Virus record (IMG/VR): IMGVR_UViG_3300020446_000065
Location: 1-26,751 of that record
DNA length: 26,751 nt
Source: a virus
Direction: 5' to 3' (one strand)
A model generated the notes under the pieces. The model did not search any database and had not been told where the DNA came from. It saw only the letters and a program-made list of their open reading frames with translations. Shown here one piece after another: positions 1 to 26,751 of this stretch. How positions within the stretch are numbered: the stretch's first letter is position 1; each line of letters starts with the position of its first letter. Both the position numbers and the translations under genes were made by a program.

Positions 1-3000
1 GCGTTGTTCTGCTCAGGTGTTCTAGCTTCGGCAGGAAGATCAATGACACGGTTAGTAAACGCGTGTGATAATTCATGAACTAGAGTTTGAGCTACGCCAC
101 CCTCTGCGTCTCTTGCAAGATTGATGACGATATTTGTTACACCATTTCTATCCGTGTAAGTTTTACCTGCGTAGTTCGCAGCAGTTGCCTCAAAAGAAAA
201 CTTAATCTTCCTGATAAAGGACGTGTCCGTTAAGAACACTTCAGCTGCGGCACCTAAAGGACTCAAAGGAGATTTCTTGTTTTTGAAAGTGGTTAGCTTT
301 TCGAGCGCGTTAATAACTCCTTCTGGGCTATTGTCCGTGATACCTAGTCCTTCCAAGTGTGTACGGTTAATAGCTTCGTTTATGTCCATTGACCTACCAT
401 TAACAATAGCCCGTTGATGGTTAGCCTCTTGAGATTTAGATATGTCGGTATAGAAAGTAACTACTTGATCGTCTGTAACGGTGTAGTCAGCACCAGCTAT
501 TTGCTGTAGGTCTGTCTTAAATTCTTGTAAGAAGAAAGCATCATTCTCAATGGTCGCATCTACGTTAGGATTCATCAGGCTAAACGTCCTGAAAACCTTG
601 CGAACTGTCTGGCCTTGTTCACCATACAACCCACGCTTTAAGTCTGACTGTAAATCAACAAGAGGGCGGTTGTTTCTAAATGCACCTTTGGAAGCAAACT
701 GAATAAGTTCGTCAAACAATTCGTCTGGCTCTAAGTCAAAAGCTCTGCCAGCCTCATTGTGATATTCCTTGTCGACTATCGCAGCTACTTTAGCAGTCAA
801 TTCGGTACTGCCTTTCATAGCTTCCACCCCCTCTTCAATCAATGTCTCACCATAGTCTTTTACTTTTCTCGTTGGCAGGGGTGGTAATGGGTTAGGCTTA
901 GGTGCTACGTAAGTATCTTGTGCCACCGCAGCAACATTGGTGTCTTGGTAAAGATCGCTGTTTGGATCTAGCACACTGACAAAACTTCTAGTGGCTCTCT
1001 TCTTTCTAGCAATCTGCTGGCCCATTGCATACTTACCCTGTCTTCTCAAGACCGCAGAAGCGTTGAATGGGGTCGGGTCTACCTCTGCATTAGCAGAAAT
1101 ATTTTGGGCATACTCAAGAACAGAGATCTGCATCTCAAGGCTGGCAGCTATATTTGCCGTTTCCTTAAATGCTTTAGACATTCCTTTATAGAAGCTGTCC
1201 GTAGCATAAATGTTCTCGAAGATATTGGTGAACGTATTGAAGTCTTTTACTCTATCGTAAATAGTAGACAGCTTAATGCTCTTTGTTCTAGTGTTAAACG
1301 GGTTAACAACTTTGAGATCCTCAAGTTGATTGAGGTTAACATTTTGTTTCAGCTCGTTAAGTCGGCTCGCAAGATTAGCAATAACAGAGTAGTCTTCTTC
1401 CAGCGCACCAACTTTGTTGAACGCTGTCTTTGCTGATACTGTGCCTCCTGATTCCTGAACCCTGATGTCTGTAACATAACGCTGGCCCGTTCCAGTCGAG
1501 AGTTCGAAAGAAGGATTAATAGTCCCACTATCTATAGCGGTGGAAGGTACAGGAATCGCGATGCCACTCTCCAAGAAAGTGAGCATGGCTACAGGATCGT
1601 TATTAAATATACCCCTACCTTTATCGTCTAAGAAAACTTTGCCCTGACCTCCGTAAACCTTAGGCATTGAACTAGCCTTCTTGGTGAATGCGTCTGTCTG
1701 AACAGGATACTTTTCTTGAATTCTCTTCTTCAGTTCCTTAGTCAAGGTGTTCAATGACGCCCTGTCCATTTTGTCAGTAGCGACACCCAGACGTTCCAAC
1801 TGATCCACAGTAAGTTGATGCGCAAAACCTGCGTTAACCAAAGGGTCTATTCCTGAGGCTTTTATTCCTCTCTGTTGTGCTTTAATTTTTCTCTGTTGTG
1901 CTTCAAACTTTGCTACTTCACTACCAACCAAAGGTTGGTCACTATGTCCCTCAGTTAATTTAAAGGTACCGTTTTCCTCCTCTTTGATATTCTGTGACGT
2001 ATTTTCGGGAGCACCTACTTTTCTTACTCTAGCAGCACGAAGCCCTCTTTTCTTGTCCTCTTTATACTCAATAAAAATTGCAGTATACGGGGCACCTTCA
2101 CGGTCGTAATAAGTCACCTTATCACCTTTTTTGAACTGCCCTCTCTTTGAAAATTGTTGCTCTAATGTTAGCTCAGTACGAGTATCAACTCCCTTGGCAT
2201 CTGACTCAGCTTGCTTTGCTAAGTTTGCATCGAGAGTTTCCTTTGCTTTCATCCGCATGAAAGCCGCTTTCTTCTTTGAGAAAGCACGGTTCTCATTTTC
2301 AGCAAGCTTGAGTTCTCTAGTAGCTCTAACAGCAGGGTTACCTGTTAAGGCCATGATACGCTTTTCCATTTTTTGATGGAGCTTCCTCTTCGCATCTATG
2401 GATAGAAGCGTGGCCTCGTAGTCTTGTTTGTAGTCTGGGTTTATTTTCTTAGCTGGGTGCTCAGAAGTAATTGCAACACTACCAGCTACAGCTTGTCCTT
2501 CCGAATCAGCTAACGCCTGTTCAGCGGCAGTTCCTTCTATTTCAGGGTTGTTACCCTGTTGAAGGTTCTGCGCCTGCATGTTTGATATCTCCGCTTCGAT
2601 GGCCTCGCTAGTTACCTCTGTCTGCAAAAGATAGTTAATCTCATCTAAATCTTCTTGAGTTAGTTCTTGGGTTTCTTCCTCAATAACTACATCTGCCTCG
2701 CCTACTACATCTTCTTCTTCGTCAATTGGCGCAGAAGATAAACGCGCCTCCATTTGTGGACGCTCTGATCTTTTGTATTGCCTTACTTGTCTCTCCGCTT
2801 CTTGTGCTGTGGCAGGAGATCCTGCTTCCCTTAGTTGATCGCCAAGTCCTTGAGCCTCTACGTCAGCTTCGAACTGTTTAAATACTTCTTGCTCCACTCG
2901 TGCAGCAGCGGCTCTGTCTAAAAATTTATCGGGAGCAATATTTTTAGCGGCCTTGCTAACAACATTACCTCCTCCACCTAATGCAGCACCTATGAGGAAT

Positions 3001-5462
3001 CCATGCCAAACTTGCTGTATCCTATCTAGCATCCCCGTGTCTTGGTTCGTGTAGACATCCTGAACTATGATGTTGAAGAACTCGTCTAGTCCTTCTTCAA
3101 ATCCTTCGTCCAATGCCGACCTTGCAAACTTCTTGGGGGCTTCCATCAATGCGTGTTTGCGCGTCACTTTCTTGAGTGAGTTCTTAATTAACGCTTTGAA
3201 AGTTTCGTCGCCTACGTTACGGCCAAGAACATTAGACGTGATCTGCCTCATCTGTCGGAAGCTCATCCCTTGAAGAAAGGCATCTTCCAAACCACCCCTC
3301 CCAAGAACTGAGAAAGAGGACGTTAGTAAACCAGTTATTGTTCCTGCTGTTAGGGCAGATCCAAATGCTTTATCGTGCGATTCTTGTTTTACCCTTTCTT
3401 CGCTCCACCCTTCTTCCCATTGTCCGTCTTCCCCTTTATGCTTACTGGTTAAGTCATCGGATACTGTTTTAAATACTGCACCATAAGTATTAGCACCTGA
3501 CCTAGTAGCGGCAGGAATAAATGCAGCGGTTCCAACTCCAAGCTTCGAAGCGATGTTGCCGTTGTATGCTTTGACAACGGCGAGAGTTCTTTCTTTGGTG
3601 GCACCTTTTAAGGCACCTGCTTTTAAAATTCTTTCGGCTGCTTGCTCGGCAGTTTCTTTACCGACTGTCTTTAGCATACCCCTAGAAGCTGCGGATATAA
3701 CAGCTCTAGCAGAAGCCGTAGCTGTTGATTTTGCCCCAGTGTAAGCAGCCAATCCAGCTAAACTGGTGCCAGCAGTGGGCTTAGTTACAAGAACAAGACC
3801 AGCTGTAACAAGGGCATCTGCAAATAGTGGAGCAATAGCTTCCGCTAGATCTTGTTCGCCGCCCATTTCTAAGCCAAACACTTTAGCTATTTCTCTGTCG
3901 TGCGCGTTGTCTTCCGCAATTTGAAGTAATCCTTCGCGCCCCCAGTCAGTGTCCATGGCAGCACCTATTCCATAAGCAATAGACGTTGCTCCTTCCCACA
4001 CACTACTTAGTACCCCTTTAGCTCTGTGTAGTATTGGGCTGAAATCAAATTCAGCTCTAAATTTTTCTAGGATCTTAGAGTTGCTTAGACCTCTCTGCTT
4101 TCCTTCAATAAGTGCGTCTCCCCACTCCTCAGAAAACGCATCGTCTTTACTTAAAAGACCAGATATCCTTTCGAAGTTATCTACTACGGCTAGTTCTCTT
4201 TGAGCATTTGCTTGGGCTGCTTCGGCTTCAGTTACGTTAGCTTGTCTTAAAGCTCTGTTAAAATCAGAAGGAGATAGCATAAGTTCGTTAGCAACGAGAA
4301 CCCCACTGTATCTTGTCTGGTATACGTTCTGCCCCAACTCCTCTTCGTTATCAGTATACTTGAGAAATGGTTTAACGTTTTCTTTAGAGTCTCCTTCGAA
4401 CGCATACTTGACTATTAGCTCACTGACTACGTCTTCCAACACTTCTGAACTAAATCCAGTAGCTTCGGACAATTCTCCTATGAGCCTGAGTTTAGCTACA
4501 TCAGTCCTTTCTTGATAATAGTCTTGGAGAGTTTTTTTATTACTCTCCGCTATAAGTTCGTCACGTTCCTCATCATCCCCCACCAAATCATTCCATCCTA
4601 TGCGGAATGTACGCACGATATCGCTGAACCCATCGGTCGCCCAATCGTTAAGCTTATCACCAGCATCCCAAGTTGCATTCTCCCCATAGTTTTTAGCCAG
4701 CCCATATAGGGCCGCTTTGTTTGCTGGGTCAATGTTCTCAATAACTTCTCTTACCTCAGCTTCTGCCAGAAGTCTTTGATCAACTTCATATCTCTTGAGA
4801 CCTTTGCCTTGCGGATGTTCTTCTCTCTTGTAGCGTAAATTAAATAAATGCTTCGGAGTTACCCCATACTTAGCAGATTCCCTAATAACGTCTGACTCAG
4901 TCATTCCTTCGGGAATGTTTCCCCCTAAGAAAAACTCGTTTCCTTCTTCGTCTTCAATGACTGCTGCAAGCAGCTCTCCCTTTTTAAACTTATCTGTAAA
5001 TTTCTTTTGGTTTGTTCTACGAACAATCTCAGATAGTTCTACAGCTTGATCTGGATCAATATCGAACGGCGATGCATCTTCATCTAAGTCTTGCGCAGTA
5101 GCGTATAAGTTGATCTTCTGCCTATCTTCCTCAGACAAGTATTGATTCTCAGTGTCTTCTTCATCGAGAAGTGTTTTTATTGAAGAGCCTAAATCTGGCT
5201 TAGAGTAAGAGCTAAGTATGTCCTCAATTTCTTGTGAGTTGTCCTCAGTAAGTATTCCTTCCTCACTTAAAACTTGACTGAGGTTATAATTGATTTGGCT
5301 CTCTATTGTTTCATCATACTTGCCTGCTGCTAAGTATTCATTTCTGACATTTTCAGTATACCTTCCGTAACTTTCGAGAGGGTTATCGTAAGGGTTTTCA
5401 ATAGACCAATCTTGATAGGTCGTTTCAACGAAGGGTGCGTTTAGGTTGCTTGGGTCTGACAT
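1..5462 (-). CDS. Giant internal-virion/ejection-type protein with HELSH metallopeptidase motif (3' end outside window)
   Basis: Reading the minus strand from the ATG at 5462, the frame stays open to the left edge, giving at least 1,820 residues. An in-frame TAA lies just upstream, so this ATG is the natural start. The N-terminal third is charged and helical. Glycine/alanine-rich hydrophobic stretches lie near residues 540-575, 700-721 and 820-839, an acidic patch near 912-944, and a possible small beta domain near 1106-1152. HELSH, a zinc-metallopeptidase HExxH motif, is at residues 1796-1800 (nt 63-77), preceded by an IVINLARD-like strand. It follows two probable virion genes downstream of terL. 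Inference: a very large ejected or polyvalent virion protein whose hydrophobic segments could enter the host envelope. The protease activity and the third zinc ligand cannot be verified because the gene runs off the window. Confidence 0.85.
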   Translation of the reverse strand, partial: MSDPSNLNAPFVETTYQDWSIENPYDNPLESYGRYTENVRNEYLAAGKYDETIESQINYNLSQVLSEEGILTEDNSQEIEDILSSYSKPDLGSSIKTLLDEEDTENQYLSEEDRQKINLYATAQDLDEDASPFDIDPDQAVELSEIVRRTNQKKFTDKFKKGELLAAVIEDEEGNEFFLGGNIPEGMTESDVIRESAKYGVTPKHLFNLRYKREEHPQGKGLKRYEVDQRLLAEAEVREVIENIDPANKAALYGLAKNYGENATWDAGDKLNDWATDGFSDIVRTFRIGWNDLVGDDEERDELIAESNKKTLQDYYQERTDVAKLRLIGELSEATGFSSEVLEDVVSELIVKYAFEGDSKENVKPFLKYTDNEEELGQNVYQTRYSGVLVANELMLSPSDFNRALRQANVTEAEAAQANAQRELAVVDNFERISGLLSKDDAFSEEWGDALIEGKQRGLSNSKILEKFRAEFDFSPILHRAKGVLSSVWEGATSIAYGIGAAMDTDWGREGLLQIAEDNAHDREIAKVFGLEMGGEQDLAEAIAPLFADALVTAGLVLVTKPTAGTSLAGLAAYTGAKSTATASARAVISAASRGMLKTVGKETAEQAAERILKAGALKGATKERTLAVVKAYNGNIASKLGVGTAAFIPAATRSGANTYGAVFKTVSDDLTSKHKGEDGQWEEGWSEERVKQESHDKAFGSALTAGTITGLLTSSFSVLGRGGLEDAFLQGMSFRQMRQITSNVLGRNVGDETFKALIKNSLKKVTRKHALMEAPKKFARSALDEGFEEGLDEFFNIIVQDVYTNQDTGMLDRIQQVWHGFLIGAALGGGGNVVSKAAKNIAPDKFLDRAAAARVEQEVFKQFEADVEAQGLGDQLREAGSPATAQEAERQVRQYKRSERPQMEARLSSAPIDEEEDVVGEADVVIEEETQELTQEDLDEINYLLQTEVTSEAIEAEISNMQAQNLQQGNNPEIEGTAAEQALADSEGQAVAGSVAITSEHPAKKINPDYKQDYEATLLSIDAKRKLHQKMEKRIMALTGNPAVRATRELKLAENENRAFSKKKAAFMRMKAKETLDANLAKQAESDAKGVDTRTELTLEQQFSKRGQFKKGDKVTYYDREGAPYTAIFIEYKEDKKRGLRAARVRKVGAPENTSQNIKEEENGTFKLTEGHSDQPLVGSEVAKFEAQQRKIKAQQRGIKASGIDPLVNAGFAHQLTVDQLERLGVATDKMDRASLNTLTKELKKRIQEKYPVQTDAFTKKASSMPKVYGGQGKVFLDDKGRGIFNNDPVAMLTFLESGIAIPVPSTAIDSGTINPSFELSTGTGQRYVTDIRVQESGGTVSAKTAFNKVGALEEDYSVIANLASRLNELKQNVNLNQLEDLKVVNPFNTRTKSIKLSTIYDRVKDFNTFTNIFENIYATDSFYKGMSKAFKETANIAASLEMQISVLEYAQNISANAEVDPTPFNASAVLRRQGKYAMGQQIARKKRATRSFVSVLDPNSDLYQDTNVAAVAQDTYVAPKPNPLPPLPTRKVKDYGETLIEEGVEAMKGSTELTAKVAAIVDKEYHNEAGRAFDLEPDELFDELIQFASKGAFRNNRPLVDLQSDLKRGLYGEQGQTVRKVFRTFSLMNPNVDATIENDAFFLQEFKTDLQQIAGADYTVTDDQVVTFYTDISKSQEANHQRAIVNGRSMDINEAINRTHLEGLGITDNSPEGVINALEKLTTFKNKKSPLSPLGAAAEVFLTDTSFIRKIKFSFEATAANYAGKTYTDRNGVTNIVINLARDAEGGVAQTLVHELSHAFTNRVIDLPAEARTPEQNN

Positions 5463-5489: not shown

Positions 5490-6587
5490 TTACTGTGATT
5501 TAAAGGATTCTATCAATTGTTGCAATTGTTGAAGCTGATCTGATGTCATGCCATCGGGCAAGGCTATGGTTTGCTTTCGTCGCATGCTATTAGCAGCCCC
5601 TTGTGGGTCTGCTGCTTTTTCTAATCTCTCTCGCATTAGCGCAGGTTCTCTTCTTTTCTGAAGAGCCTCTGCATCTAACTCTGCAAGAGTTACTAGCGCA
5701 CTCGAAATGTCTGTAACACCACGATTTTTTAACGTTGTGCCATCACTAAGTTTAAGGTTTTGAACAATCTCGGCTTGTTCTCTGGCTATCCTGTCACTTG
5801 TCTCGTCTGGTTTTTCTCCATCAAGAGGTGCCGATGTAAAGTTATCTTGAATGTCTTTAATTGTTGTTCGTAGCTTTGAATATTCATCTTGAGATAACTT
5901 GAGTTCAGCATCTAGTCTTGCTTCTTGTGCTTTAGATGCAGTCGCGCTTGCTTCAGCAGTTCTTCTTTCGGCGGCAGCTCTGCCCCTATTGAAATTAGCT
6001 TCATTGATTTTTGCCTCCATTGCTTCTGCTGGAGTCGTGATCCCATCAGCATTGGCAAAGTTTTTAAAGTCTACAGGGTCAATACCAGCGGTAGCCATTC
6101 TAGCCATAGTCTGTAGGTTTTTATCGGCGGCATCGGCTTCAGCTTGGCGTGACTTCAATGAATCTGTGGCTGATTTAAATATAATATTAGCTGCTGGGTG
6201 CTTACTTAATATCTTGGCATTCTTCATACCAAAGGCAGCTATGTCCCTTTGCTTTTGGAAATTATTCTTGTTGGGATCGTCGATAATATTGTTTAAAGAT
6301 TTTGTGAGTTCTTCTGTGCGTTCACCAAAATCTATTTCTTCTTGTGCCTTGCGTTTCTTTTCTTCGAACTCAAGCAAACTACTTTGGTAAGCTAATTCAG
6401 AATTCCTTTCTCTCAGTAACTGAGAGCGTAACTTCATCATTTCCTCTAGCTGAGGCTGAAGTTCTTGGTTCTCGTACGCAGTGATGAAGCCGCTTTCCCT
6501 ACTAGTCAGACCATAAGTATTCCTTAATGGCTTGATATCACGGTTAAAGAAATCGTCAGTTGCAACTGGAAATTGTGGTTCAGCCAT
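5490..6587 (-). CDS. Coiled-coil protein, probable internal virion protein
   Basis: A 365-aa product that I do not recognise. It is almost entirely charged and helical: long stretches near residues 45-100 and 185-250 are rich in Glu, Lys, Ala, Arg and Gln and look like coiled coil. The C-terminus ends in a Gln-rich helix (DQLQQLQQLIESF). There are no cysteines, signal peptide or membrane segment. It begins 4 nt after the stop of the 440-aa gene and ends 27 nt before the giant gene, so the three are probably one operon. Its position between terL and a giant ejection-type protein suggests a scaffold-like or internal virion role (inference). Its stop codon is in the same frame as the giant gene, nine codons upstream of that start. 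Confidence 0.8.
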   Translation of the reverse strand: MAEPQFPVATDDFFNRDIKPLRNTYGLTSRESGFITAYENQELQPQLEEMMKLRSQLLRERNSELAYQSSLLEFEEKKRKAQEEIDFGERTEELTKSLNNIIDDPNKNNFQKQRDIAAFGMKNAKILSKHPAANIIFKSATDSLKSRQAEADAADKNLQTMARMATAGIDPVDFKNFANADGITTPAEAMEAKINEANFNRGRAAAERRTAEASATASKAQEARLDAELKLSQDEYSKLRTTIKDIQDNFTSAPLDGEKPDETSDRIAREQAEIVQNLKLSDGTTLKNRGVTDISSALVTLAELDAEALQKRREPALMRERLEKAADPQGAANSMRRKQTIALPDGMTSDQLQQLQQLIESFKSQ

Positions 6588-6591
6588 GGCT

Positions 6592-7914
6592 TTATGCTAT
6601 TTTGATTGGAGGGTTTCTAACTTCCATAGTTCTTATGGGTTGGCTCTTTCCATCAATAACCATATTGCCATCCCTGAAAACTGGCCCCATATTGCCTCCC
6701 CTGAAAACTGGCCCATCCTGTCCTCCTACGTTAACGTTTGGCATAAAGTTAGGGTTATTTTTCATACGATCCATAAGCATTTCTTGAAGGCGCATATTAC
6801 TCTCTCTGGTTTTAGCAACTCGTGCTTCTGCTGCGTCTCTCGCAGCTAAGAACTGCGGCGTAGCTACAGCTGGTGCGTTGCTTTCTGGTGAACTAGCCCA
6901 ATCAGCCGCTGCTTTATTTGCCGCAGCAATGAATCCTTTTTTCCTAAGCATCCTTGCTTTTCGTAAACCAGCGTTTCTTGAGTATAAAGACCTTCTTGAA
7001 CCAGACCCCAAGGTTCTGTTAGGGTCTTGCATTCTTTTATAGAAGTCTTCGTAGCTCCCTAATTGCTTCCGCTCACGTTCCCTCCTTTTGGCTATCATCT
7101 CTTTGGATTTGCCTCGGACAAATTTTCTCCTCTCCTCCATTATCTCCCTGTCCATTTCTTTCCTGCCAATGCCCAGCTCGGTCATTCCAATTTCACGCAA
7201 GTCATTAACGCCACCGTCTCCATCTATGTTATTAGCTTTAACTTGTTCCGTGATTCTTCTCCTCAACGCTCTACGTTGGTTGAGATTAGAACCGTAATCT
7301 GGATCAGTTAGAGAACCTGACTCTATGCCTGCTTGAGAGTAAGGGTCGGTAACTAACTTAGGCAATTGACCGCTACCAGTGACTCCCTGATCGGGGTTGG
7401 TGGCAGGTTGATCTGATACTCGTCCTTGTGATTCTGGTTCAGCGGCAGCCGTGGCTCGTGTGGGGTTGTTCTCATCAAAGGCCGCAACCATATCTGAAGT
7501 TTCGCCTGCTGCTATAAGCCTCTCACGCTCTTCTCTATTTTCACGAGCTGTTTCTTCGGAGATGGCAGGTTGCTCTGATACTCGCTCCCCCATAGGTGGA
7601 GTGTTATATTCGATGACATCACCACGATTTGGTTTTCCTGTGGGTACATTAGCAGCTTGACTAACTGCACCTCCTGTTACACCTGCCGTTCCAGCATCAC
7701 CTGTCGGGCCAGTCACTCCAGATTCCCCCAGCCTCTGCTGCTTGTCCTCTTCCATCCTACCCTGAACTATTCTATTACGTTGTTCTACCTGTTCGGGAGT
7801 TCTAAGCTGATCTAATGAAGAACTACTCAAACCCCCTGATGGTTGCAGCTTTCCTGTTTGCAAACCCCCCGATGATTTAAGTGCCTTTGCTTTCTTTTTT
7901 TTAGGTTCAGCCAT
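6592..7914 (-). CDS. Disordered basic protein with collagen-like and Ca-loop-like stretches, probable virion protein
   Basis: A 440-aa product without a recognisable family. The start is Lys-rich (KKKKAKALK). Residues 66-83 form a short Gly-x-x collagen-like run (GVTGPTGDAGTAG). The middle is rich in Pro, Glu, Gly and Asn and looks disordered. Residues 229-241 (NIDGDGGVNDLRE) resemble a dockerin/EF-hand calcium loop, though the twelfth position is Arg rather than an acid. Residues 245-340 are strongly basic and helical. Near residues 400-418 a nonapeptide (GPVFRxGNM) is repeated in tandem. The gene is preceded by a near-consensus sigma70 promoter whose -10 box is 7 nt from the ATG, so it may be translated from a leaderless mRNA. 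A virion or DNA-binding role is inferred only from position and charge. Confidence 0.75.
   Translation of the reverse strand: MAEPKKKKAKALKSSGGLQTGKLQPSGGLSSSSLDQLRTPEQVEQRNRIVQGRMEEDKQQRLGESGVTGPTGDAGTAGVTGGAVSQAANVPTGKPNRGDVIEYNTPPMGERVSEQPAISEETARENREERERLIAAGETSDMVAAFDENNPTRATAAAEPESQGRVSDQPATNPDQGVTGSGQLPKLVTDPYSQAGIESGSLTDPDYGSNLNQRRALRRRITEQVKANNIDGDGGVNDLREIGMTELGIGRKEMDREIMEERRKFVRGKSKEMIAKRRERERKQLGSYEDFYKRMQDPNRTLGSGSRRSLYSRNAGLRKARMLRKKGFIAAANKAAADWASSPESNAPAVATPQFLAARDAAEARVAKTRESNMRLQEMLMDRMKNNPNFMPNVNVGGQDGPVFRGGNMGPVFRDGNMVIDGKSQPIRTMEVRNPPIKIA
6662..6715. repeat. 27-bp tandem repeat inside the 440-aa gene
   Basis: Two adjacent, nearly identical 27-bp copies start at 6662 and 6689, each beginning ATATTGCC. 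On the minus strand they encode two nonapeptides differing at Gly/Asp (GPVFRGGNM, GPVFRDGNM). The period is a multiple of three, so copy number can vary without a frameshift. Confidence 0.8.
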
Positions 7915-7921
7915 AAGTTAA

Positions 7922-7950
7922 ATTATACAATTTGAATTAAAAAAAGTCAA
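7922..7950 (-). promoter_or_regulatory. Near-consensus sigma70 promoter for the 440-aa virion operon
   Basis: On the minus strand the -35 box is TTGACT (7950-7945, 5 of 6 consensus), then a 17-bp spacer, then TATAAT (7927-7922, 6 of 6). The -35 box overlaps the TGA stop of terL. Only 7 nt separate the -10 box from the ATG at 7914, so transcription is expected to begin at or next to the A of the start codon. Confidence 0.8.
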
Positions 7951-9734
7951 TCGACTAGGGTAGTATCAGCGTTTTGTAAAGCTCCACTTAATGTTTTTAT
8001 AGATCGTGGAGGCTTATTGAAAGATACATCTCCTTCTTTTGGTGGGTCGACAGCTACTAAACCTAGTCTTTGACGAGCGCAATCTAACGCTAAAAACGCT
8101 GCATCTGCAAGGTCTGGACTTTTACCAAAGCGAGCTTTGTATTCAGGTTTACTTTCAATTTTCATACGAAGGGTCGAACCCTTTACATGATCATAATTTC
8201 TTCCTGTTATTTCTTGTGCTAAATCTGAACTGACCCCAAAGATTTGACGAGTCCTCATCAACTCTTTACCAACAAACCAAAGTTCAGATACCCTATTAAC
8301 GTAAAGTTCATGTCCTACAAGTTTGCTGTTGACGCTGACGCGCTTGTCACTTGCTTTGCCTCCGAATGAAACCCTCATAAAGCGGCCAGACCATTCACCT
8401 GCCAGAACGTCACAAAACGGAGCACCAGCTCCAGTAGCGTCCACACTTACATTTTCAGGTGGGACGTTATGCTTTGTGCATAAATCTTTGATTTGTTTTA
8501 CAATTTGGTAAGTCCTTGGAATCGCCTTATTAGTTGCGTCATCGTTTAAATGAACGGCTTGTCCAAACTCTATAACATATTGACCACTGCTGTCATAACC
8601 ACACTTAGCTAAAAAAGCGATACACCTATCGCCTCCATTCGTGAAGGCCGGATCGATACCGCAAAGGTTAATCGGAGTGCTCTGCCATTGAACAGAGTTC
8701 ATAGCTTTACTATTTGCTATTTCGTTTTCTGTATAAATACCTGTGGTCTCATCACTATCAAAGAAAACAGCTCTGACCATTCGCATATAACCTCTGCTTT
8801 CAACTCCAAGTAATGCTTTGTCTTCGGCAAGTTTTTCTTCCGTGGGTAGCCATGGGTAAATAGTTTCTCCTGCTAGAATGTTGGGAGATCTCTCTCCATC
8901 TAAACGAACATATTTTCCTTTCCATTTAGTGTCCCACTCATCGGCAGTATTTGTGTCCACACTATCCCATCCGTCTTTAGGGGTTGACCAAACCCCAAAT
9001 GCGTCGAAGCGGCTATTAGGGTTAGACATACCGATCATTTGAAATGAAGGGTTTTTACTCAAGTTTGTAAGACCTGCGTTAAGGATAGCTTCAGAAAGTT
9101 CTGAAAGCTCGTCGCCAATAAGGATCACGCGTTTTTGTTTAATACCAATGAATTTACCTACCGCTTCTTTGGTTTTACTTTTTTCCGCTGAGATCAATGA
9201 AAGCCCAGCTCGTTCTATAAGAATGTCTTTTTCGTTTACATAAGAAGCGTTGCCTATTGAATCCCGTATCTTGATCGGTGCATCATCAATCACGGATAGG
9301 AGAGACATCACACTGCCCCATATACGTTTACGAGCTTCGCGTAGTGTAGTGGAAGTCATAAGGACTAGAGTGTCTTGGGGTTGACACAGCCAATTGATTA
9401 TCCCCCACGCAGCCATTGTATGTGATTTTCCAGATGATGCACTTCCCCCAACAGCAAGATATTTATTGTTGATCGCAGCTCGTATCATCATCTCAGCCCA
9501 CGGATGCTTAACCATTAACTTTTCTGGGAGATCTTCGCGGTTCCATAACTCATCACAAATTCTCCAGAAATAATATTCACGAGCAAGAGGTTCTTCATGT
9601 TTAGCAAAACCATAAAGAAGTGCTGTCAATAAGCTAGTTGGGGGGATAGAGAAACCGCCCACGTCCATCCTTTTTGTTTTAGGACAAATTTTAGGTTCTA
9701 GTAACTGCTTGCTCCTCTCTTCCTTTAAAGCCAT
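7947..9734 (-). CDS. terL: Terminase large subunit
   Basis: A 595-aa packaging motor with ATPase and nuclease domains. Walker A is at residues 97-104 (GSASSGKS) and Walker B at 203-209 (VILIGDE). A Thr/Ser-rich segment, VLMTSTT, lies near 123-129. The C-terminal RNase H-like nuclease shows acidic residues in the expected order: Asp361 (CGIDPAFT), Asp432 (VSVDATG) and Asp541/Asp544 (SPDLADA). The length is normal for a complete phage TerL. The ATG is preceded by an AT-rich stretch without a Shine-Dalgarno sequence. Its partner terS starts 26 bp away on the opposite strand, an unusual divergent arrangement. The stop codon overlaps the -35 box of the next gene's promoter. Confidence 0.97.
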   Translation of the reverse strand: MALKEERSKQLLEPKICPKTKRMDVGGFSIPPTSLLTALLYGFAKHEEPLAREYYFWRICDELWNREDLPEKLMVKHPWAEMMIRAAINNKYLAVGGSASSGKSHTMAAWGIINWLCQPQDTLVLMTSTTLREARKRIWGSVMSLLSVIDDAPIKIRDSIGNASYVNEKDILIERAGLSLISAEKSKTKEAVGKFIGIKQKRVILIGDELSELSEAILNAGLTNLSKNPSFQMIGMSNPNSRFDAFGVWSTPKDGWDSVDTNTADEWDTKWKGKYVRLDGERSPNILAGETIYPWLPTEEKLAEDKALLGVESRGYMRMVRAVFFDSDETTGIYTENEIANSKAMNSVQWQSTPINLCGIDPAFTNGGDRCIAFLAKCGYDSSGQYVIEFGQAVHLNDDATNKAIPRTYQIVKQIKDLCTKHNVPPENVSVDATGAGAPFCDVLAGEWSGRFMRVSFGGKASDKRVSVNSKLVGHELYVNRVSELWFVGKELMRTRQIFGVSSDLAQEITGRNYDHVKGSTLRMKIESKPEYKARFGKSPDLADAAFLALDCARQRLGLVAVDPPKEGDVSFNKPPRSIKTLSGALQNADTTLVD

Positions 9735-13560: not shown

Positions 13561-15324
13561 ATGGATAAAAATATTTATGCAGTAGATTTTGAAACCTACT
13601 ATGACAAAGAGTGCAGCATTAAAACTCTAGGAACGTTAGGCTATTTTAGCCACCCACAATTTGATGCATACATGGTTTCCGTTGTAGGAAACGATGGAAC
13701 TAGTTTTGTTGGGCACCCAAAAGATTTTAACTGGGATATCCTTACAGGAAATATTGTGCTTTCGCATAACGCTAGTTTTGATGAGACCCTGTATCTTTAC
13801 GGAGTAGAACATGAATGGTGGGATTCATGTGACCCATTTGAGTGGCACTGCACAGCAGACCTAGCCGCTTATTGTAAGCTCCCAAGATCCTTGAAAGGAT
13901 CAACGGCAGAATTGTTTGACTTAACAGTAGATAAAAGCACGAGGGATAACATGTCTGGCAAGAGGTGGGAGGAAATGACAAAAGAATTTAAAGATGAGGT
14001 CAGTGAGTATGCACTAAAAGACAGTGAACTGTGCCTTAAATTATGGGAGACATTGAGTGATAAGTGGCCTGAGTTCGAAAGGAACATAAGCAGATTGAAC
14101 AGAAAGATTGTTCAGGAAGGAATCCCCATCAACGAAGATCTTTTAAAGGAGCAACTAGAAACTATTAAAGTTAAGTTGTTTGAAGCAGAAGAAGTTATTC
14201 CGTGGCTGGGTGAAAAACCGTTACTTAGTCGTGCAGCATTCGATGAGCAATGCTTGCTGGTAGGGATTGAGCCTCCAGTAAGTTTAGCTGTGACTGATGA
14301 AGAATCCCAGAAATGGGTAGAATACCATAGCAAAGAATTTGCGTGGATAAGTGCGGTAAAGGATTGGCGAAGGATTAACTCTCTCCAAAAGAAGTTGGAA
14401 AGTTTTGATTACGCAACGATGCCTAACGGCAGATATTACGGGGGATGCATGTATTTTGGAGCGCATACTGGGAGATTCTCTGGATCTGGGGGAAACCTAA
14501 ACTTACAGAATTTACCAAGGGAGGAAATGTTTGGTGTAAACCTAAGGCATTTAATAGCCCCTAATTCTGACAAAAGATTAATCGCAGTTGATCTTTCTCA
14601 GATTGAAGTCAGGACACTTTGCTGGTTAGCTAAGGATTCCGAAATGCTTGAAGAGATACGTAACACAGATGATATCTATGAAGCTTTTGCCATAAGGTTT
14701 GGTATGTGGGATGAAGAAAAAGGGTCAATAAAACAAGACCCCAAACTTAGGCATGCAGTGAAAGGAATGGTGTTGGGTTGCGGCTATGGGGCAGGAGCTG
14801 CTAGGTTTGCTTCTATGTCTGGTATTAGTGAAGACGAAGCTGGGAAAAGAGTTCGTAAATATCGGATGAAGATGAGAAGGGTTAAGAACCTTTGGGATAA
14901 ATACACTAGTGATATCGAATGCTCCCACCAAGCTAAGTCTGAATTTACTGTGGATCTTCCTAGTGGCAGAGTTATTAACTATGGTCGGCTAAAAGCTTTA
15001 GCGGAAGGAGGAAGACTTCACTTTATAACCAAAATGCCTAAGCACGGTAAAAATATTACAGTCCGTCTTTGGGGAGGGCTTGTGGCAGAGAATGCCAGCC
15101 AAGCTTTAGCCAGAGATATTTTTTCTGATATGCTCCTGAGGGTAGATAAAGCAGGACATAGAATCATTATGCACGTTCATGACGAGATGGTAATTGAAGC
15201 AGATGAAGATAAAGCCAAGCAAACACTAGAGGATGTTATCTCCATAATGTCCAAACCTCCTGAATGGATTCCCGATATCCCAGTAGATGCAGAAGGATCA
15301 ATACTAACAAAATATGAAAAATGA
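13561..15324 (+). CDS. Family A DNA polymerase with 3'-5' exonuclease domain
   Basis: A 587-aa replicative polymerase of the phage PolA type. The N-terminal proofreading domain has Exo I (VDFET, Asp9/Glu11), Exo II (NASFD, Asp74) and Exo III (YALKD, Tyr150/Asp154). The polymerase domain has TGRFSGSGG near 303-311 and LQNLPR at 315-320, motif A VDLSQIEVR (Asp344), motif B with Arg397, Lys401 and Tyr409-Gly410, and motif C HVHDE (Asp541/Glu542). There is no 5' nuclease domain. All catalytic residues needed for polymerisation and proofreading are present. The start lacks a Shine-Dalgarno sequence and follows a 148-bp structured gap. The stop overlaps the primase-helicase start as ATGA. Confidence 0.97.
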   Translation: MDKNIYAVDFETYYDKECSIKTLGTLGYFSHPQFDAYMVSVVGNDGTSFVGHPKDFNWDILTGNIVLSHNASFDETLYLYGVEHEWWDSCDPFEWHCTADLAAYCKLPRSLKGSTAELFDLTVDKSTRDNMSGKRWEEMTKEFKDEVSEYALKDSELCLKLWETLSDKWPEFERNISRLNRKIVQEGIPINEDLLKEQLETIKVKLFEAEEVIPWLGEKPLLSRAAFDEQCLLVGIEPPVSLAVTDEESQKWVEYHSKEFAWISAVKDWRRINSLQKKLESFDYATMPNGRYYGGCMYFGAHTGRFSGSGGNLNLQNLPREEMFGVNLRHLIAPNSDKRLIAVDLSQIEVRTLCWLAKDSEMLEEIRNTDDIYEAFAIRFGMWDEEKGSIKQDPKLRHAVKGMVLGCGYGAGAARFASMSGISEDEAGKRVRKYRMKMRRVKNLWDKYTSDIECSHQAKSEFTVDLPSGRVINYGRLKALAEGGRLHFITKMPKHGKNITVRLWGGLVAENASQALARDIFSDMLLRVDKAGHRIIMHVHDEMVIEADEDKAKQTLEDVISIMSKPPEWIPDIPVDAEGSILTKYEK

Positions 15325-17486
15325 AATACAGATACCTTAAAAATCTTAGAGCCAAAAAAATTACAGCTTGCGATGACATGTCGCAGATTGTTGCCCAGAG
15401 ACCAGTCTTTAAATCAAAAGCATTATATAGAGAGTGGTGCGGTAAAACTGACACTGATCATTATTTCTTTAGTTTGGCAGAGGGCCTTAATAGTGGGGCG
15501 CGTATCGAAGGTGAGAATAAAGTAGTTAAGGTACATGGTGTTGCTGCTGATTACGATGCGCCCGTTGACTGGGCTAACGTCGATAATATTATCGCCGCTA
15601 AGTGTGTAGATTGTATGCCTTCATGGAGGGCGATGACATACAGCGGATACATTCGTGTCGTTTTTGAATTCGAAGAAGTATGTTCTGTGCCTCATTTTCT
15701 TTATCGTCCTTTTATGGGCGAACTGAAGAAGCTTATAAATTTTTCTAAGATATTTGCTGGATACGATAAGAAGTCCGAAGAGCCATCACAGTATTTTGAA
15801 TTGGGAACCGAGTGGGTTGCGCTGAATGGAAAAGTTCCAGCGGCGGTTGTCCAGACTGCACTTATCAAAGCAGCTAAGAATAACCCTCCCGAATCTGCTG
15901 ACACATCTATACCCATAGAAGAAGTCGCTGCTGAAGTTCAAAAGAAATTTCCAAATCGTTGGATAGGAGACTTTGAAGTGGGGTCAAGAGGCCCTTTGTT
16001 CTGGATTGATGATGGAATTGATAGGGAGGGGTGTCAGGTATTTGAAGATGGGATGATTGTCTATTCAGACAGAGACTATGGGTGGAAGCCTTGGAGAGAA
16101 ATATTTGGGCCTAGCTTTGTTAAAGGCTATGAGCAAAAGAAGATGGGGGGCTTGCTTGATGAGTATTGGTTTAATGGCAGACAATTTTTTAAGCTGTTAC
16201 ATGGAGCCGCACAACCTATCCCTAGAGATCAGCTTGTCCTAGAACTTAGACAGCGTGGTTTTAAGAACTCTACAAAGAAAGGAGACAACATTTCTGAAGT
16301 GGAGAATGCTATATTAGTTATAAGCAACCAGAATAGAATAAATGAAATAGCTCCTGTTGTGTTTAGACGTAACGAAATAGTCGTTGATTTCAACGGCCTT
16401 AGGATACTTAACAGTTCTAACATCCAGCCCATATTACCTTCGGGTGATCCTGACCCCTCGAATTGGGCTTGGCTCGATATGTTCTTTGATCAGTTCTTTG
16501 TGGACTCAACTGAGGTGAGAACTAAGTATTACTTCTTTGCGTGGATGAAGCGATACCACGCTGGTGTTGTAAACAACAGGGAAGATCAAGGGCAAGCGTG
16601 TATTCTTGTAGGGCCAGCTAAGAAAGGTAAGACACTTGTATCCAATAAAATTATTGCCGCCGCAGTAGGAGGGTATGCAGATGCTAGTGACTACTTGTCT
16701 GGGGGAACAAAGTTTAACAAAGATTTGGGAAGAGCAGCTTGTTGGGTAATTGATGATACCGTTAGTGCTGCTTCATTTCAAGATCAGCGCAAAGCGACAG
16801 AGCTTATTAAAAGAGCTGTAGCTAATCCCCGTATTGAATTTATGGCTAAGTATGCAGACGCTGTAACTTTACCATGGGCAGGGAGAGTTGTTGTCAGCCT
16901 TAATGATGACGCGAATAGTATGAGCGTTATACCAACTCTTGATTCAAGCAATAAGGATAAGCTCATGGCATTTAAAGTTTCGGACACGCCTTTTAATTTC
17001 CCTGTCAAAGCAAAGCTAGAAAACATTATCGCTACTGAATTGCCCCATTTCCTTGCTTGGTTGGATCAATGGAACCCACCTGCCGAGATCCTAGATGATG
17101 ACAGGTTTGGTGTAAAAAGCTTTATCGACAAGAGTATTGCTCATGCGGCCTACGACAACTCAAGTAGATCACAAGTAGCAGAGCTTGTTGATTTCTTTGC
17201 TAAAGCAGCTCGTGAAAACGATGTCGAAAGAGAATGGAGTGGGACATTGACTGAGTTTCAGCGAGCTTTACACACCTACAACAACGGCAGAACTTTAGGT
17301 GCCTCAAACAAAATTGAGTTCGTGCGGAATGGATTAGCACATATGGAAGATGGTGGTAAGTCCAACTTGAAACTTAGGCCCATCAAGTCTGTTGGTAAGG
17401 GCGGTGGTAAGATATGGACTATCAATATAGAGGAGAAATATGATATCGACTTTACAGAGAATTCGAAGGACGCAATGCTCCAATAG
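15321..17486 (+). CDS. Primase-helicase: AEP-like N-terminus and SF3 helicase
   Basis: A 721-aa probable replicative primase-helicase. The N-terminal third resembles an archaeo-eukaryotic primase: VAADYD supplies a DxD pair (Asp77/Asp79), and TYSGYIRVVFEF and QYFELGTEW follow in the expected order. The His usual in the second motif is not evident, so priming activity is uncertain. The C-terminal ATPase is clear: Walker A at 431-438 (GPAKKGKT), Walker B at 475-479 (WVIDD) and an SF3-style motif C ending in Asn528 (RVVVSLN). The gene is coupled to DNA polymerase by ATGA. Its last 35 nt overlap, tail to tail, the opposing nuclease gene, and an intrinsic terminator begins 25 nt beyond its stop. 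Confidence 0.9.
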   Translation: MKYRYLKNLRAKKITACDDMSQIVAQRPVFKSKALYREWCGKTDTDHYFFSLAEGLNSGARIEGENKVVKVHGVAADYDAPVDWANVDNIIAAKCVDCMPSWRAMTYSGYIRVVFEFEEVCSVPHFLYRPFMGELKKLINFSKIFAGYDKKSEEPSQYFELGTEWVALNGKVPAAVVQTALIKAAKNNPPESADTSIPIEEVAAEVQKKFPNRWIGDFEVGSRGPLFWIDDGIDREGCQVFEDGMIVYSDRDYGWKPWREIFGPSFVKGYEQKKMGGLLDEYWFNGRQFFKLLHGAAQPIPRDQLVLELRQRGFKNSTKKGDNISEVENAILVISNQNRINEIAPVVFRRNEIVVDFNGLRILNSSNIQPILPSGDPDPSNWAWLDMFFDQFFVDSTEVRTKYYFFAWMKRYHAGVVNNREDQGQACILVGPAKKGKTLVSNKIIAAAVGGYADASDYLSGGTKFNKDLGRAACWVIDDTVSAASFQDQRKATELIKRAVANPRIEFMAKYADAVTLPWAGRVVVSLNDDANSMSVIPTLDSSNKDKLMAFKVSDTPFNFPVKAKLENIIATELPHFLAWLDQWNPPAEILDDDRFGVKSFIDKSIAHAAYDNSSRSQVAELVDFFAKAARENDVEREWSGTLTEFQRALHTYNNGRTLGASNKIEFVRNGLAHMEDGGKSNLKLRPIKSVGKGGGKIWTINIEEKYDIDFTENSKDAMLQ

Positions 17487-23572: not shown

Positions 23573-24262
23573 TTAAACGAAAAAAGATTTTAGGTGGCCT
23601 ACGCGTAACTTAGGCACTACCAAAGGCTTAATACCTGTAGCATCGTAGCAGTTGCGGCAGAAGCTTACATCTTCAAAAGACATGTCTTTTATGTCCATTT
23701 TAGCTCCTCCGTTTGGGTTTTTGCATCCTTTTATCTCTACAGGATTAAGAGGGTAGTAGGGATACTCCATCTCTTCATAAATAGATCTGTGGACTTTGGT
23801 AAAACCAAACCCACACCAGTCTACTTTAATTAGCTTTGAGGGAGACTCTTGTGCTTTCTTCTCCATAAAATCTCCAGACAAAAAGGGCATGTGTAAATGT
23901 TTACGGAAGTAATCCTCATCCCACTTACCTACCATTGCTGTATCCGATCCATCACTCTTATACCAACCCGTTACAAATTTGTGTTTAGGATCTATTCGAT
24001 GCAAATGATCTATTTGATCTATTGAAAATTGTATATCGGAATCAATCCAAAATAACCATTCTGCTTCAATTGGTCTTGTGTCGTAGTTGCCCCTACCTCC
24101 TGTGGCTAAGAAATTTCTAGCGAAATTTAAGAACAAACCACTACAGGTAAATATCTGTGAATTGTTTTTCTCGCACCAAGACTGAAGTTCTAGGTATTGT
24201 TGAAATAACTTACCATCTATACCTCGATGATCTATTGGGATTAAAAATACTGTATTAAGCAT
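23573..24262 (-). CDS. GT-A-fold glycosyltransferase-like protein
   Basis: A 229-aa product with a glycosyltransferase layout: an N-terminal strand (VFLIPID), then EAEWLFWIDSDIQF with the metal-binding DSD at 74-76, VDWCGFGFTKVHRSI at 147-161, and near the C-terminus FEDVSFC followed by RVGHLKS. It is short and lacks a membrane segment, suggesting a soluble single-domain enzyme. It overlaps the end of the tail-fibre gene by 8 nt, so it may modify the fibre or another virion or host glycan. Substrate and donor sugar cannot be read from the sequence. Confidence 0.75.
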   Translation of the reverse strand: MLNTVFLIPIDHRGIDGKLFQQYLELQSWCEKNNSQIFTCSGLFLNFARNFLATGGRGNYDTRPIEAEWLFWIDSDIQFSIDQIDHLHRIDPKHKFVTGWYKSDGSDTAMVGKWDEDYFRKHLHMPFLSGDFMEKKAQESPSKLIKVDWCGFGFTKVHRSIYEEMEYPYYPLNPVEIKGCKNPNGGAKMDIKDMSFEDVSFCRNCYDATGIKPLVVPKLRVGHLKSFFV

Positions 24263-26751
24263 TAGCTAAAGAATCGATGTATTCAACTGAGGTAGTGTCC
24301 ACTTCAGCAGGGCTATCTGCTATGGCCTCCTCTTCATCATCTTCTTCAACATCAACCTCTATTACAAGTTTATCAATATCTTTTCTTTCTCCATAAACAA
24401 CGTAGTAGTAATTCAAAGGCTCATCAGTATTTGATCCAACAACAACATCTCCGTTAGCCTCCATAGAAGAAACGAAGAGACATTGTTTAGATCCAATAGC
24501 TGTAAGCTCTACTGTCATGCTATCGAGATCTACTAACCCATCCCAATAATCCGGCATAGTTATAGTGTTGGAGGTGCTCTTACCTCGGAAGTATACACCA
24601 ATCTCTGGCCCCTCAAGAGAGGCATGTACAAGCTGCTTGTTCTCTTTGGTTGGGTGATCAATTACGAAACTCTTATAAGATCCTTGAATGCTACCATTGA
24701 CTTGTAGTGCGTAGTAACCCGATACAGAACTGGTTCCTATACCTACGTTGCCTTGGATAAGCATTCCGTTAGTAGGAGCCGTAGATGAAGTGTAACTAGC
24801 TCCGATAGCTACACCCCCATTAACTGCGAGTTTGCTCGAAGCAGTTGTAGTTCCTATTGCAAAATTACCTCCGCTAGTAATTGCACTCTCTACACCACTA
24901 CTAGCACTTCCCCCATTCGGTCTGAACCTAAATCCTTTGCCACTTCTAGCAGCAAAATACATATGATCGCCAGCTTTAGCGAAGATTCTGTGGTGACCAT
25001 TTGTTAAGTTTGTTGTTCCGATTCCAAATGATCCATAGTCCCCACCATAAGTGCCATCGACATCAATCTTACTGTTGGCATCAGTGATAGTGACATCAGC
25101 TAAAGAAGCGTTGCTTCCTGATTTGTAAAATGTAGAAGCATGATACCCATCTAGTTTATCCGCATCTAATCCAGAGCTACTGCCGTCAACGGTCTTGATT
25201 GCGGTAAGAATCTCACTAGCAGTCTGATCTCCTTTAGCTCCGCTTTCAATTCCATCTAACTTATTCTTGAGTGTTGTGGTAAAATTCTTTTGAGTAAGTC
25301 CTCCGTCTCCGACTGAGTAAGTTGTATTAGTATCTGTCCAAGGAACGTTGACATACATCTTCTCAGATGAAAGTTCGACGGGATAGTTCTTTCCGTTCTC
25401 GGAATACCCAATCTTAACACCGCCTCTAGTAGAACTAGTAGCAAGTGGAAGAGAGTAGTTATTCGCGTTAGTCGCAATACCATCTAACTTACTCTTGAGT
25501 GTTGAGGTAAAATTCTTTTGAGTGAGTCCTCCGTCTCCTACTGAGTAAGTTGTATTTGTGTCAACCCAAGGAACGTTGACATACATCTTCTCAGATGAAA
25601 GTTCGACGGGGTAGTTCTTTCCGTTCTCAGGATACCCAATCTTAACACCACCTCTAGTAGAACTAGTAGCAAGTGGTAGTGAGTAAGCAGAAGGGATTGT
25701 GGGAGTATTAGTAAAATTATTATAATTTAGATAATGTGAGCCATGGTTTCCATCAAGTGTATCTGCGTTTACATTATCATTAGTAGTAAGAACTTTGTAT
25801 TGGGTCGTGTCACCGTCAGCGTAGATTGGGCCAGTCGTTGCAAAACCACCCTGTGCAATTTGATCTAAATCAATTCTAGAACTTTCAGTGAAAGATCCGT
25901 AGTTGTCTACAGAGGGTGGGGTGGTAGCATCTGGAATAAAATCTCGAAGAACCCAACCGGAAGATTGAAAGTTATCTCCAAGGATAGCTACATTCAGTGC
26001 ATTCTGAGCGTTATCAATATATACTTGAAGGGCAGCACCATCATAAGTTCCACCTGCTTTGATTCTTAGGTAACGCAAAGGACTAGTGCCGTAGTAAGAA
26101 TTATCTAAAACAGTAATCGTATCGGCTGCTGCATTTCCATATTTATGTGCTGCATAAAAAGTCACACTCTGGTGACGGCTACTATCTGTATCCCAAATAC
26201 CAAATCTAGCTGTAGCTCTATCACCTGTGTTAGTCGCAATGGTATACCAACCAACAGAAAGGTCAGAGGCTGTATGCCCAGAAATGTAAGAGTTATCCAT
26301 AAACGTCTGGATCTCACTTTCTGTATAATAACGTGAATCTAAGTTGGTACTACTTAATCCAGTTACGTGACCAAAAGTATCAAGAGTAACGTCTTGAATA
26401 ACCGAGCCATTACTATTGTTAATAGATGACTGCGAAGATGTATCAGAGTGACTAAACGTAGTGCTAGATAAATTTAATCCTGATCCAGCAGCGTAGGTTG
26501 TATTGGTATTTGTGTCTGTCCAAGGAACGTTGACATACATCTTCTCAGATGAAAGTTCGACAGGGTAGTTCTTTCCGTTCTCGGAATATCCAATCTTAAC
26601 ACCACCTCTAGTAGAAGAAGAGGCAAGTGGAAGAGAGTAGTTGTTCGCGTTAGCAGCAATACCATTTAACTTACTTTTAAGTGCGTCCGTAAAATTGTTT
26701 TGAGTAAGTCCACCATCCCCTACCGAATAAGTTGTATTAGTATCAACCCAA
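24255..26751 (-). CDS. Tail fibre protein with tandem repeats (5' end outside window)
   Basis: The minus frame is open to the right edge, giving 831 residues in the window; the ATG at 26540 is internal. The fibre body contains near-identical repeats (TSSTRGGVKIGY, NGKNYPVELSSEKMYVNVPW, TTYSVGDGGLTQ) spaced by KLDGI linkers. LDADKLDGYHAS and GIGTTN-type motifs typical of phage tail fibres follow. The C-terminal part (KSFVIDHP, LVHASLEGPEIGVYFRG) resembles the terminal domain of T4-like and cyanophage fibre proteins. The last 40 residues are very acidic. It should mediate host-receptor binding. A glycosyltransferase-like gene overlaps its end. Confidence 0.9.
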   Translation of the reverse strand, partial: WVDTNTTYSVGDGGLTQNNFTDALKSKLNGIAANANNYSLPLASSSTRGGVKIGYSENGKNYPVELSSEKMYVNVPWTDTNTNTTYAAGSGLNLSSTTFSHSDTSSQSSINNSNGSVIQDVTLDTFGHVTGLSSTNLDSRYYTESEIQTFMDNSYISGHTASDLSVGWYTIATNTGDRATARFGIWDTDSSRHQSVTFYAAHKYGNAAADTITVLDNSYYGTSPLRYLRIKAGGTYDGAALQVYIDNAQNALNVAILGDNFQSSGWVLRDFIPDATTPPSVDNYGSFTESSRIDLDQIAQGGFATTGPIYADGDTTQYKVLTTNDNVNADTLDGNHGSHYLNYNNFTNTPTIPSAYSLPLATSSTRGGVKIGYPENGKNYPVELSSEKMYVNVPWVDTNTTYSVGDGGLTQKNFTSTLKSKLDGIATNANNYSLPLATSSTRGGVKIGYSENGKNYPVELSSEKMYVNVPWTDTNTTYSVGDGGLTQKNFTTTLKNKLDGIESGAKGDQTASEILTAIKTVDGSSSGLDADKLDGYHASTFYKSGSNASLADVTITDANSKIDVDGTYGGDYGSFGIGTTNLTNGHHRIFAKAGDHMYFAARSGKGFRFRPNGGSASSGVESAITSGGNFAIGTTTASSKLAVNGGVAIGASYTSSTAPTNGMLIQGNVGIGTSSVSGYYALQVNGSIQGSYKSFVIDHPTKENKQLVHASLEGPEIGVYFRGKSTSNTITMPDYWDGLVDLDSMTVELTAIGSKQCLFVSSMEANGDVVVGSNTDEPLNYYYVVYGERKDIDKLVIEVDVEEDDEEEAIADSPAEVDTTSVEYIDSLANA
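25254..25691. repeat. 238-bp direct repeats in the tail-fibre gene
   Basis: The stretch beginning at 25254 recurs at 25492 (period 238 bp) with scattered base differences over about 200 bp. A further copy of the same period lies at 26521-26751, aligning with 25339-25569 and cut by the window edge. Differences between copies are partly synonymous, so the units have diverged but stay under selection. Copy-number change by recombination is plausible. Confidence 0.85.

Follow-up and report, generated by a model that had tools for sequence, protein, structure and literature searches.

A giant, most likely polyvalent ejection protein of a tailed phage, with a predicted zincin domain and a variable bay bounded by repeated peptides

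The giant reading frame and its neighbourhood

The window analysed is the whole IMG/VR record IMGVR_UViG_3300020446_000065 (26,751 nucleotides). At its left edge it contains the truncated gene of a giant protein, preceded on the same strand by two smaller genes and a terminase gene. The features discussed below are the following:

3..5462, minus strand: N-terminal 1,820 codons of the putative giant ejection protein (open frame, completed in contig L002/L009)
3..263, minus strand: visible part of the predicted zincin domain (zincin 1), residues 1734-1820 (AF2 topology, alignment of 18 sequences, VIA-align rows)
63..77, minus strand: HELSH (HExxH) motif, residues 1796-1800 (frame translation, alignments)
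2913..3845, minus strand: Gly/Ala-rich, mildly hydrophobic region, residues about 540-850 (hydropathy of five proteins, alignment of 17)
5490..6587, minus strand: 365-aa gene directly upstream of the giant, first partner (related ORF at the same place in relatives)
6592..7914, minus strand: 440-aa gene, second partner (weak collagen-like match, PHROG E 0.011)
7947..9734, minus strand: terminase large subunit, terL (phrog_2, E 1.6e-14)

As described in the first-pass annotation, which was made from the sequence of the window alone, the minus-strand frame is open from the ATG at 5462 to the left edge. It is not an edge artefact, because the IMG/VR contig L002/L009, which is 100% identical to the window's giant over residues 1-1820, carries the same frame on to a stop after 4,022 amino acids (protein P0005, L009:10001-22069). 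Relatives have 4,264 and 4,124 amino acids, and two cut ones 3,822 and 3,893; residues 1-1500 of the giant were matched at all 23 giant loci scanned (22 contigs). The expectation that more domains lay outside the window was borne out by the completed P0005, which holds a second domain with an EExxH...E pattern, a bay with a DUF7178 module, and a C-terminal domain.

The location of the giant beside terL was likewise confirmed, and the terminases of 12 Arthrobacter phages were matched to it by tblastn with 23% identity. The order terL, two small genes, giant was found with all four genes matched in 9 of the 23 loci scanned; at the other 14 at least one of the four was unmatched within the available DNA, and in L023 and L024 terL is present and one or both small genes are without a match. 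The two small genes had been proposed to encode internal virion proteins: they do precede the giant in relatives, but family searches named neither the 365-aa nor the 440-aa gene as such. The sole PDB match of the 365-aa gene, a "circular tendon repeat protein" (E 3.5e-5), was judged spurious, as were UBA_3, DED and designed-protein matches. A search of phage records with the N-terminal half of the giant returned no matching record, and of 26 stretches in genome_contigs that matched a pattern none was confirmed as a relative. At the other end of the window, 24255-26750 encodes a tail-fibre-like protein (PHROG E 4.6e-39) that runs off the right edge.

The Gly/Ala-rich region at 2913..3845 is a candidate membrane-active part of the protein. 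The hydrophobic stretches noted in the first-pass annotation are mild, the strongest 19-residue window in the visible part (residue 542) reaching a Kyte-Doolittle value of 1.96; in the relative P0008 no window of at least 1.2 was found in the first 1,800 residues. Profile comparison of the N-terminal region with Y3 or phi18:3 gave probabilities of 0.5% and 0.7%.

The conserved domains of the giant

The visible part of zincin 1 consists of a helix, three strands and a helix bearing HELSH. A candidate for the third zinc ligand, which the first-pass annotation had suggested looking for, lies outside the window in the stretch NIEEF (residues 1851-1855). HExxH is invariant in all 18 aligned giants and, with near-copies included, present in 25 of 26, the exception being L072 with EExxH; this conservation rules out a chance motif. 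The aligned third-ligand position is acidic in 26 of 26 giants (Glu in 24, Asp in L011 and its near-copy L012) and, in the 18 rows measured, follows the second His by 53-80 residues.

Two solved phage proteins stood out when the zincin 1 profile was compared with the PDB: 9sfn_G, "Internal virion protein" (E 6.3e-10), and 8vb2_A, the PhiM1 tetrameric ejection protein gp48 (E 2.9e-7), both with HEAxH and a later Glu; the third sequence came at E 0.44. In a search of nine proteins six were scored (iE 3e-12 to 5e-17), namely the internal virion protein of phage PP16, a Klebsiella N4-like virion RNA polymerase (vRNAP), an Acinetobacter phage giant, two crAss-like proteins and one Helicobacter prophage protein, while phi18:3 gp123 and two Y3 proteins were unmatched (best iE 0.5 or worse). 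Among phages, tblastn of zincin 1 returned 34 records at E up to 1; the matches to those annotated as "virion RNA polymerase" or internal virion/core protein were weak (E 8e-3 to 0.5). A SprT-like Pfam match to P0005 (E 0.084) is below the cut-off and counts as a hint only.

An AF2 model of zincin 1 together with the EExxH domain (28 sequences, mean pLDDT 72.7, pTM 0.42) places helices at 95-113, 150-168 and 213-222 and strands within 115-142, that is, a helix, three strands, the HExxH helix and then a later helix with the acidic ligand. Foldseek found no PDB match to this model at E 0.001. VIA-align, a second look at Foldseek's rows, placed 8vb2 first among the rows over zincin 1 (Z 8.7, 97 residues, rmsd 3.0); further rows were anthrax lethal factor entries (Z 5.9-8.5) and N4 vRNAP gp50 (9pnt, residues 2124-2363; Z 7.3). 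These Z values are middling, yet they agree with the sequence matches. HELSH thus likely sits in a zincin domain of the lethal-factor/N4 type, with a predicted fold and putative zinc binding, and the metallopeptidase-like fold suggested for it in the first-pass annotation is consistent with the model.

Several functions of this domain can be weighed on the same evidence. First, it could help to breach the cell wall, as the published PhiM1 label "endolysin/exotransglycosidase-like" (Asp268-Asp528; PMC11440229) spans the zincin-profile match (8vb2_A residues 382-507). However, HEAAH followed by a Glu is present in the matched stretch, several metallopeptidases are among the fold rows over zincin 1, and Pfam found no lysozyme or transglycosylase family in the giant; a role in wall degradation is highly improbable. 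Second, the domain could be a catalytically inactive scaffold needed for packaging: N4 vRNAP, which bears a related zincin, is reported as packaged unprocessed, its C-terminal region being needed for encapsidation (PMC5512222). The near-invariance of HExxH (25/26) and of the acidic third position (26/26) exceeds the needs of a scaffold, which makes this quite improbable.

The second domain, with the EExxH...E pattern, is modelled as a helix (314-337), three strands (343-365), a helix with NEEIAH (388-407) and a helix with the later Glu (451-475). It is called zincin-like solely because the order of its predicted elements is the same as in zincin 1. The hhalign probability of its profile against that of zincin 1 was 0.7-0.8%, whereas unrelated flanking control segments reached up to 11.2%, so that an origin as a duplicate of zincin 1 is unsupported; most VIA-align rows over residues 387-540 of the model were phycobiliproteins and globins (Z up to 7.1) rather than zincins.

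The distribution of the pattern follows that of the cargo. All 23 giants with a bay of at least 214 aa have EExxH...E, and none of the three with a bay of 20-25 aa does. The latter, cargo-less giants (L020, L021 and L026) have neither the joint peptide described below nor the EExxH...E residues, while HExxH is kept. In a FastTree tree rooted on L072 they form one clade nested among cargo-bearing giants, and the loss of cargo, joint peptide and EExxH...E therefore counts as one event. Since the EExxH domain is decayed where cargo and sites are absent, it appears to be linked to the cargo.

The retention of HExxH and the acidic third ligand even in the three cargo-less proteins would also suit a zincin that acts as an effector, cutting a host or envelope protein during DNA entry, and among the fold rows is lethal factor, which as a protease acts in trans. 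Nevertheless, L072 has EExxH in place of HExxH, and a protease within a packaged giant could equally process itself. We regard the effector function as rather unlikely.

The C-terminal domain comprises the last ~1,100 amino acids and is mostly helical. With residues about 3156-3830, tblastn found the Pseudoalteromonas phage vB_Pun_Y3 protein WPJ21803 (9e-22) and Cellulophaga phage phi18:3 gp123 (1e-15); gp123 is annotated, on MS/MS evidence, as a virion protein. Profile comparison by hhalign gave 99.9% for WPJ21803 and 99.6% for gp123, whereas none of the ten remaining targets, made up of three candidate relatives, one crAss-like protein, four further proteins and two reversed sequences, exceeded 1.2%. 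Homology to the C-terminal parts of other giant virion proteins found no support in the profile comparison: the N4-like C2 of the Klebsiella vRNAP scored 0.1% (a single-sequence target of low power), and the Acinetobacter phage At2 giant (0.3%) and the PhiM1-type protein of PP16 (1.0%) did no better than the controls. The C-terminal model (mean pLDDT 67.1) had no PDB match in Foldseek at E 0.001 and 26 BFVD matches at E 0.001 or better, with TM-scores of at most 0.52; these include phi19:3 and several "large polyvalent protein associated domain" proteins, one of them LPD38. In structure it resembles 8vb2 only weakly (Z 4.7, 243 residues). In phage vB_Pun_Y3, WPJ21802 ends with the same 319 residues with which WPJ21803 starts (L005:14122-15078 and 15122-16078), which is either a duplication or an assembly artefact.

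The giant is probably packed in the virion and ejected with the DNA, because its C-terminal domain has a virion homologue, its gene order is that described above, and relatives of its zincin occur in ejection proteins.

The cargo bay and its joint peptides

Between the second and the C-terminal domains, outside the window, lies a variable bay of 20-2,057 aa. In 13 relatives it is bounded by peptides of the form L[QE][ST][RQ]xG, more fully L[QE][ST][RQ], a mostly hydrophobic residue, G and [AS]; a second clade has SG[IV][TSF]. In P0007 two copies of LQSRxGA stand 343 residues apart and flank a whole inserted module; in P0008 copies of LQSRxG flank an inserted module at a distance of 305 residues.

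The pattern L[QE][ST][RQ].[GS] occurs 25 times in 18 distinct giants (near-copies removed), always in the bay, as against 1.21 copies expected from shuffles. Six of the 18 lack it, namely the three cargo-less giants and L037, L039 and L040; the distant L072 is also unmatched. The 13 motif-bearing proteins, which are homologous so that their copies are not independent, have 28 copies in the bay and none outside, the bay making up 18% of their 51,343 aa. L and G are present in all 28 copies, S in 25, R in 23 and a hydrophobic fifth residue in 26. The pattern was drawn from the data, and the only held-out positive is L065, fetched after the pattern had been fixed: among ten loci fetched later it has three of three copies in the bay, and the other nine (four of them contigs already counted) have none. 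A stricter form was sought in the ORFs (at least 60 aa long) of 14 sources, 121,439 residues in total, and was found 22 times, each time in a giant. A blind search for the best internal repeat returned the joint peptide in 7 of 8 proteins and above all eight shuffles in 6 of 8, the exceptions being L065 and L002; in L002 a different repeat ranked best. A looser pattern was not enriched in 20 other polyvalent or phage proteins (14 seen, 17.5 expected).

In the second clade (8 proteins) SG[IV][TSF], a pattern chosen after looking, occurs 33 times in the bay, which is 34% of the length, and 8 times outside, as against 3.3 expected in all; seven of the eight outside copies stand at one N-terminal joint. 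P0005 has a further internal repeat, EDGQWEEGW at residue 678 in the N-terminal part and EDGIFEDGW at residue 2754 in the bay, which scored above eight of eight shuffles.

Few of the modules carried in the bay could be named. Residues 2282-2474 of P0005 match DUF7178 (E 1.9e-9), and the other modules of its bay are unnamed. Among 13 bays scanned, DUF7178 was above the cut-off in six and no family was found at E 0.01 in six; the bay of L018 has a 2H phosphoesterase match, that of P0007 a DUF5591 match below the cut-off, and ART-like and kinase-like modules were recognized by eye only. The DUF7178 module (L009:16706-17920, P0005 residues 2236-2640) has an invariant K (mostly GRKT) and D (T.D) in 17 of 17 sequences, an arrangement reminiscent of the OGG1-like K...D motif of HhH-GPD DNA glycosylases. 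The only matches to the profile of the module were weak ones to sulfhydryl oxidases (E 0.002-0.007), and no glycosylase was among the VIA-align fold rows shown; a DNA glycosylase function is a lead only. DUF7178 also occurs in the giants L042-L057, there without a match to the zincin or C-terminal profiles. The bays of L069 (residues 2164-2383) and L071 (residues 1954-2203) contain an extra HExxH with weak zincin-profile matches (40 and 31 bits), perhaps additional zincins.

Our tentative account, to which we give slightly less than an even chance, is that the giant is a virion-packaged ejection chassis with exchangeable bay modules, whose joints are proposed processing sites. The chassis would comprise the N-terminal ~1,500 aa with its Gly/Ala-rich segments, the HExxH zincin, the EExxH...E domain and the ~1,100-aa C-terminal domain, with the exchangeable modules carried in the bay between the last two. 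The giant would be packed in the head and then ejected along with the DNA, and the joint peptides would be cut during assembly or after entry, the modules then working apart in the host. The candidate cutter is zincin 1, or the EExxH domain if this is a protease at all; a cut just ahead of the hydrophobic residue at position 5 would fit zincin specificity. The persistence of zincin 1 in the cargo-less giants, which have no such sites, counts against this account, and the domain may have another substrate there. The first-pass annotation had suggested that the protein cuts a host or virion target; self-processing at the joints is at least as likely, because the repeated peptides stand at module joints.

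The main rival to processing is that the joint peptides are flexible linkers, or recombination seams for module swapping, and stay uncut. This is possible, at well below an even chance. The copies do flank whole inserted modules in P0007 and P0008, they are almost identical in DNA in L028, the bay is the variable part of the giant, and the copy at residue 2219 of P0005 lies in a low-confidence stretch (pLDDT below 50) that is probably flexible. On the other hand, position 5 is hydrophobic in 26 of 28 copies, and the seven other multi-copy proteins keep the peptide while their synonymous codons differ between copies (e.g., AGG and CGC for Arg), a sign of selection acting on the peptide. All copies within any one of the eight multi-copy proteins agree at positions 2-3; at position 4, L019 has both R and Q.

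The giant could also be an ejected polyprotein, whose changeable set of host-takeover enzymes would be freed at a self-specific peptide by an unusual EExxH domain paired with the classical HExxH zincin, site and protease having co-evolved. We consider this unlikely. A recurrent site restricted to module borders holds for L[QE][ST][RQ]xG (28/28), whereas only 33 of 41 copies of SG[IV][TSF] are in the bay. The mismatch between the profiles of the second domain and zincin 1 lowers the weight both of this reading and of our tentative account.

Comparison with known systems

The giant is most likely a polyvalent ejection protein of a tailed phage, of a known kind: it is very large, lies beside packaging genes and has an HExxH zincin with a later acidic residue. 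The first-pass annotation had arrived at the same class, which is consistent with the matches to two solved podophage internal or ejection proteins and with fold rows led by PhiM1. Polyvalent proteins are known, and zincin-based processing has been described for them as a prediction; the bay with its joint peptides, outside the window, looks new. The family offers putative cleavage sites, domains that may be the protease and, in the cargo-less clade, a natural negative control, and zincin processing of polyvalent proteins thereby becomes testable. If true, our account would reveal a way for phages to carry early effectors in a single slot of an ejection protein and to exchange them there. The results also suggest re-examining the endolysin-like-labelled stretch of the PhiM1 ejection protein as a zincin.

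For polyvalent proteins with a zincin-like MPTase domain, processing by the zincin was predicted in general terms and on domain grounds (Iyer et al., 2017; PMC5512222). As described in the available part of that paper, these proteins resemble the giant in being large and multidomain, in lying beside packaging genes, in having exchangeable domains, in the giant putative effectors, and in having a zincin whose HExxH is followed by a Glu on a later helix; they differ from it in that the giant has a fixed chassis with a single cargo bay, an additional domain with EExxH...E and a joint peptide specific to its family. That part of the paper names no sites of the joint type, "cleavage site" occurring solely in its reference list, and a literature search by title and start of abstract, in a scope outside bioRxiv and most subscription journals, returned no such joint peptides. 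P0005 matched none of the polyvalent-domain Pfam families at E up to 1. In a protein of the crAss-like phage cr116_1 (L008:8129-15652), ART-PolyVal occurs together with an HExxH zincin and a stretch that by eye looks macro-like.

The N4-type vRNAP gp50 (PMC12633501) is likewise a giant ejected protein in which an HExxH domain (C1) is followed by a large helical domain. The giant itself is not a vRNAP of this type, no RNA polymerase family having been found in P0005 at E up to 1. PhiM1 gp48, a solved podophage ejection protein (PMC11440229), shares the related zincin, but its 1,263 aa could not accommodate the whole chassis. Phi18:3 gp123 and Y3 WPJ21803, by contrast, have no zincin-profile match and share the homologous C-terminal domain, and in Y3 ddrB-ParB, LPD1, LPD5 and ART domains are encoded in the preceding 3,421-aa gene.
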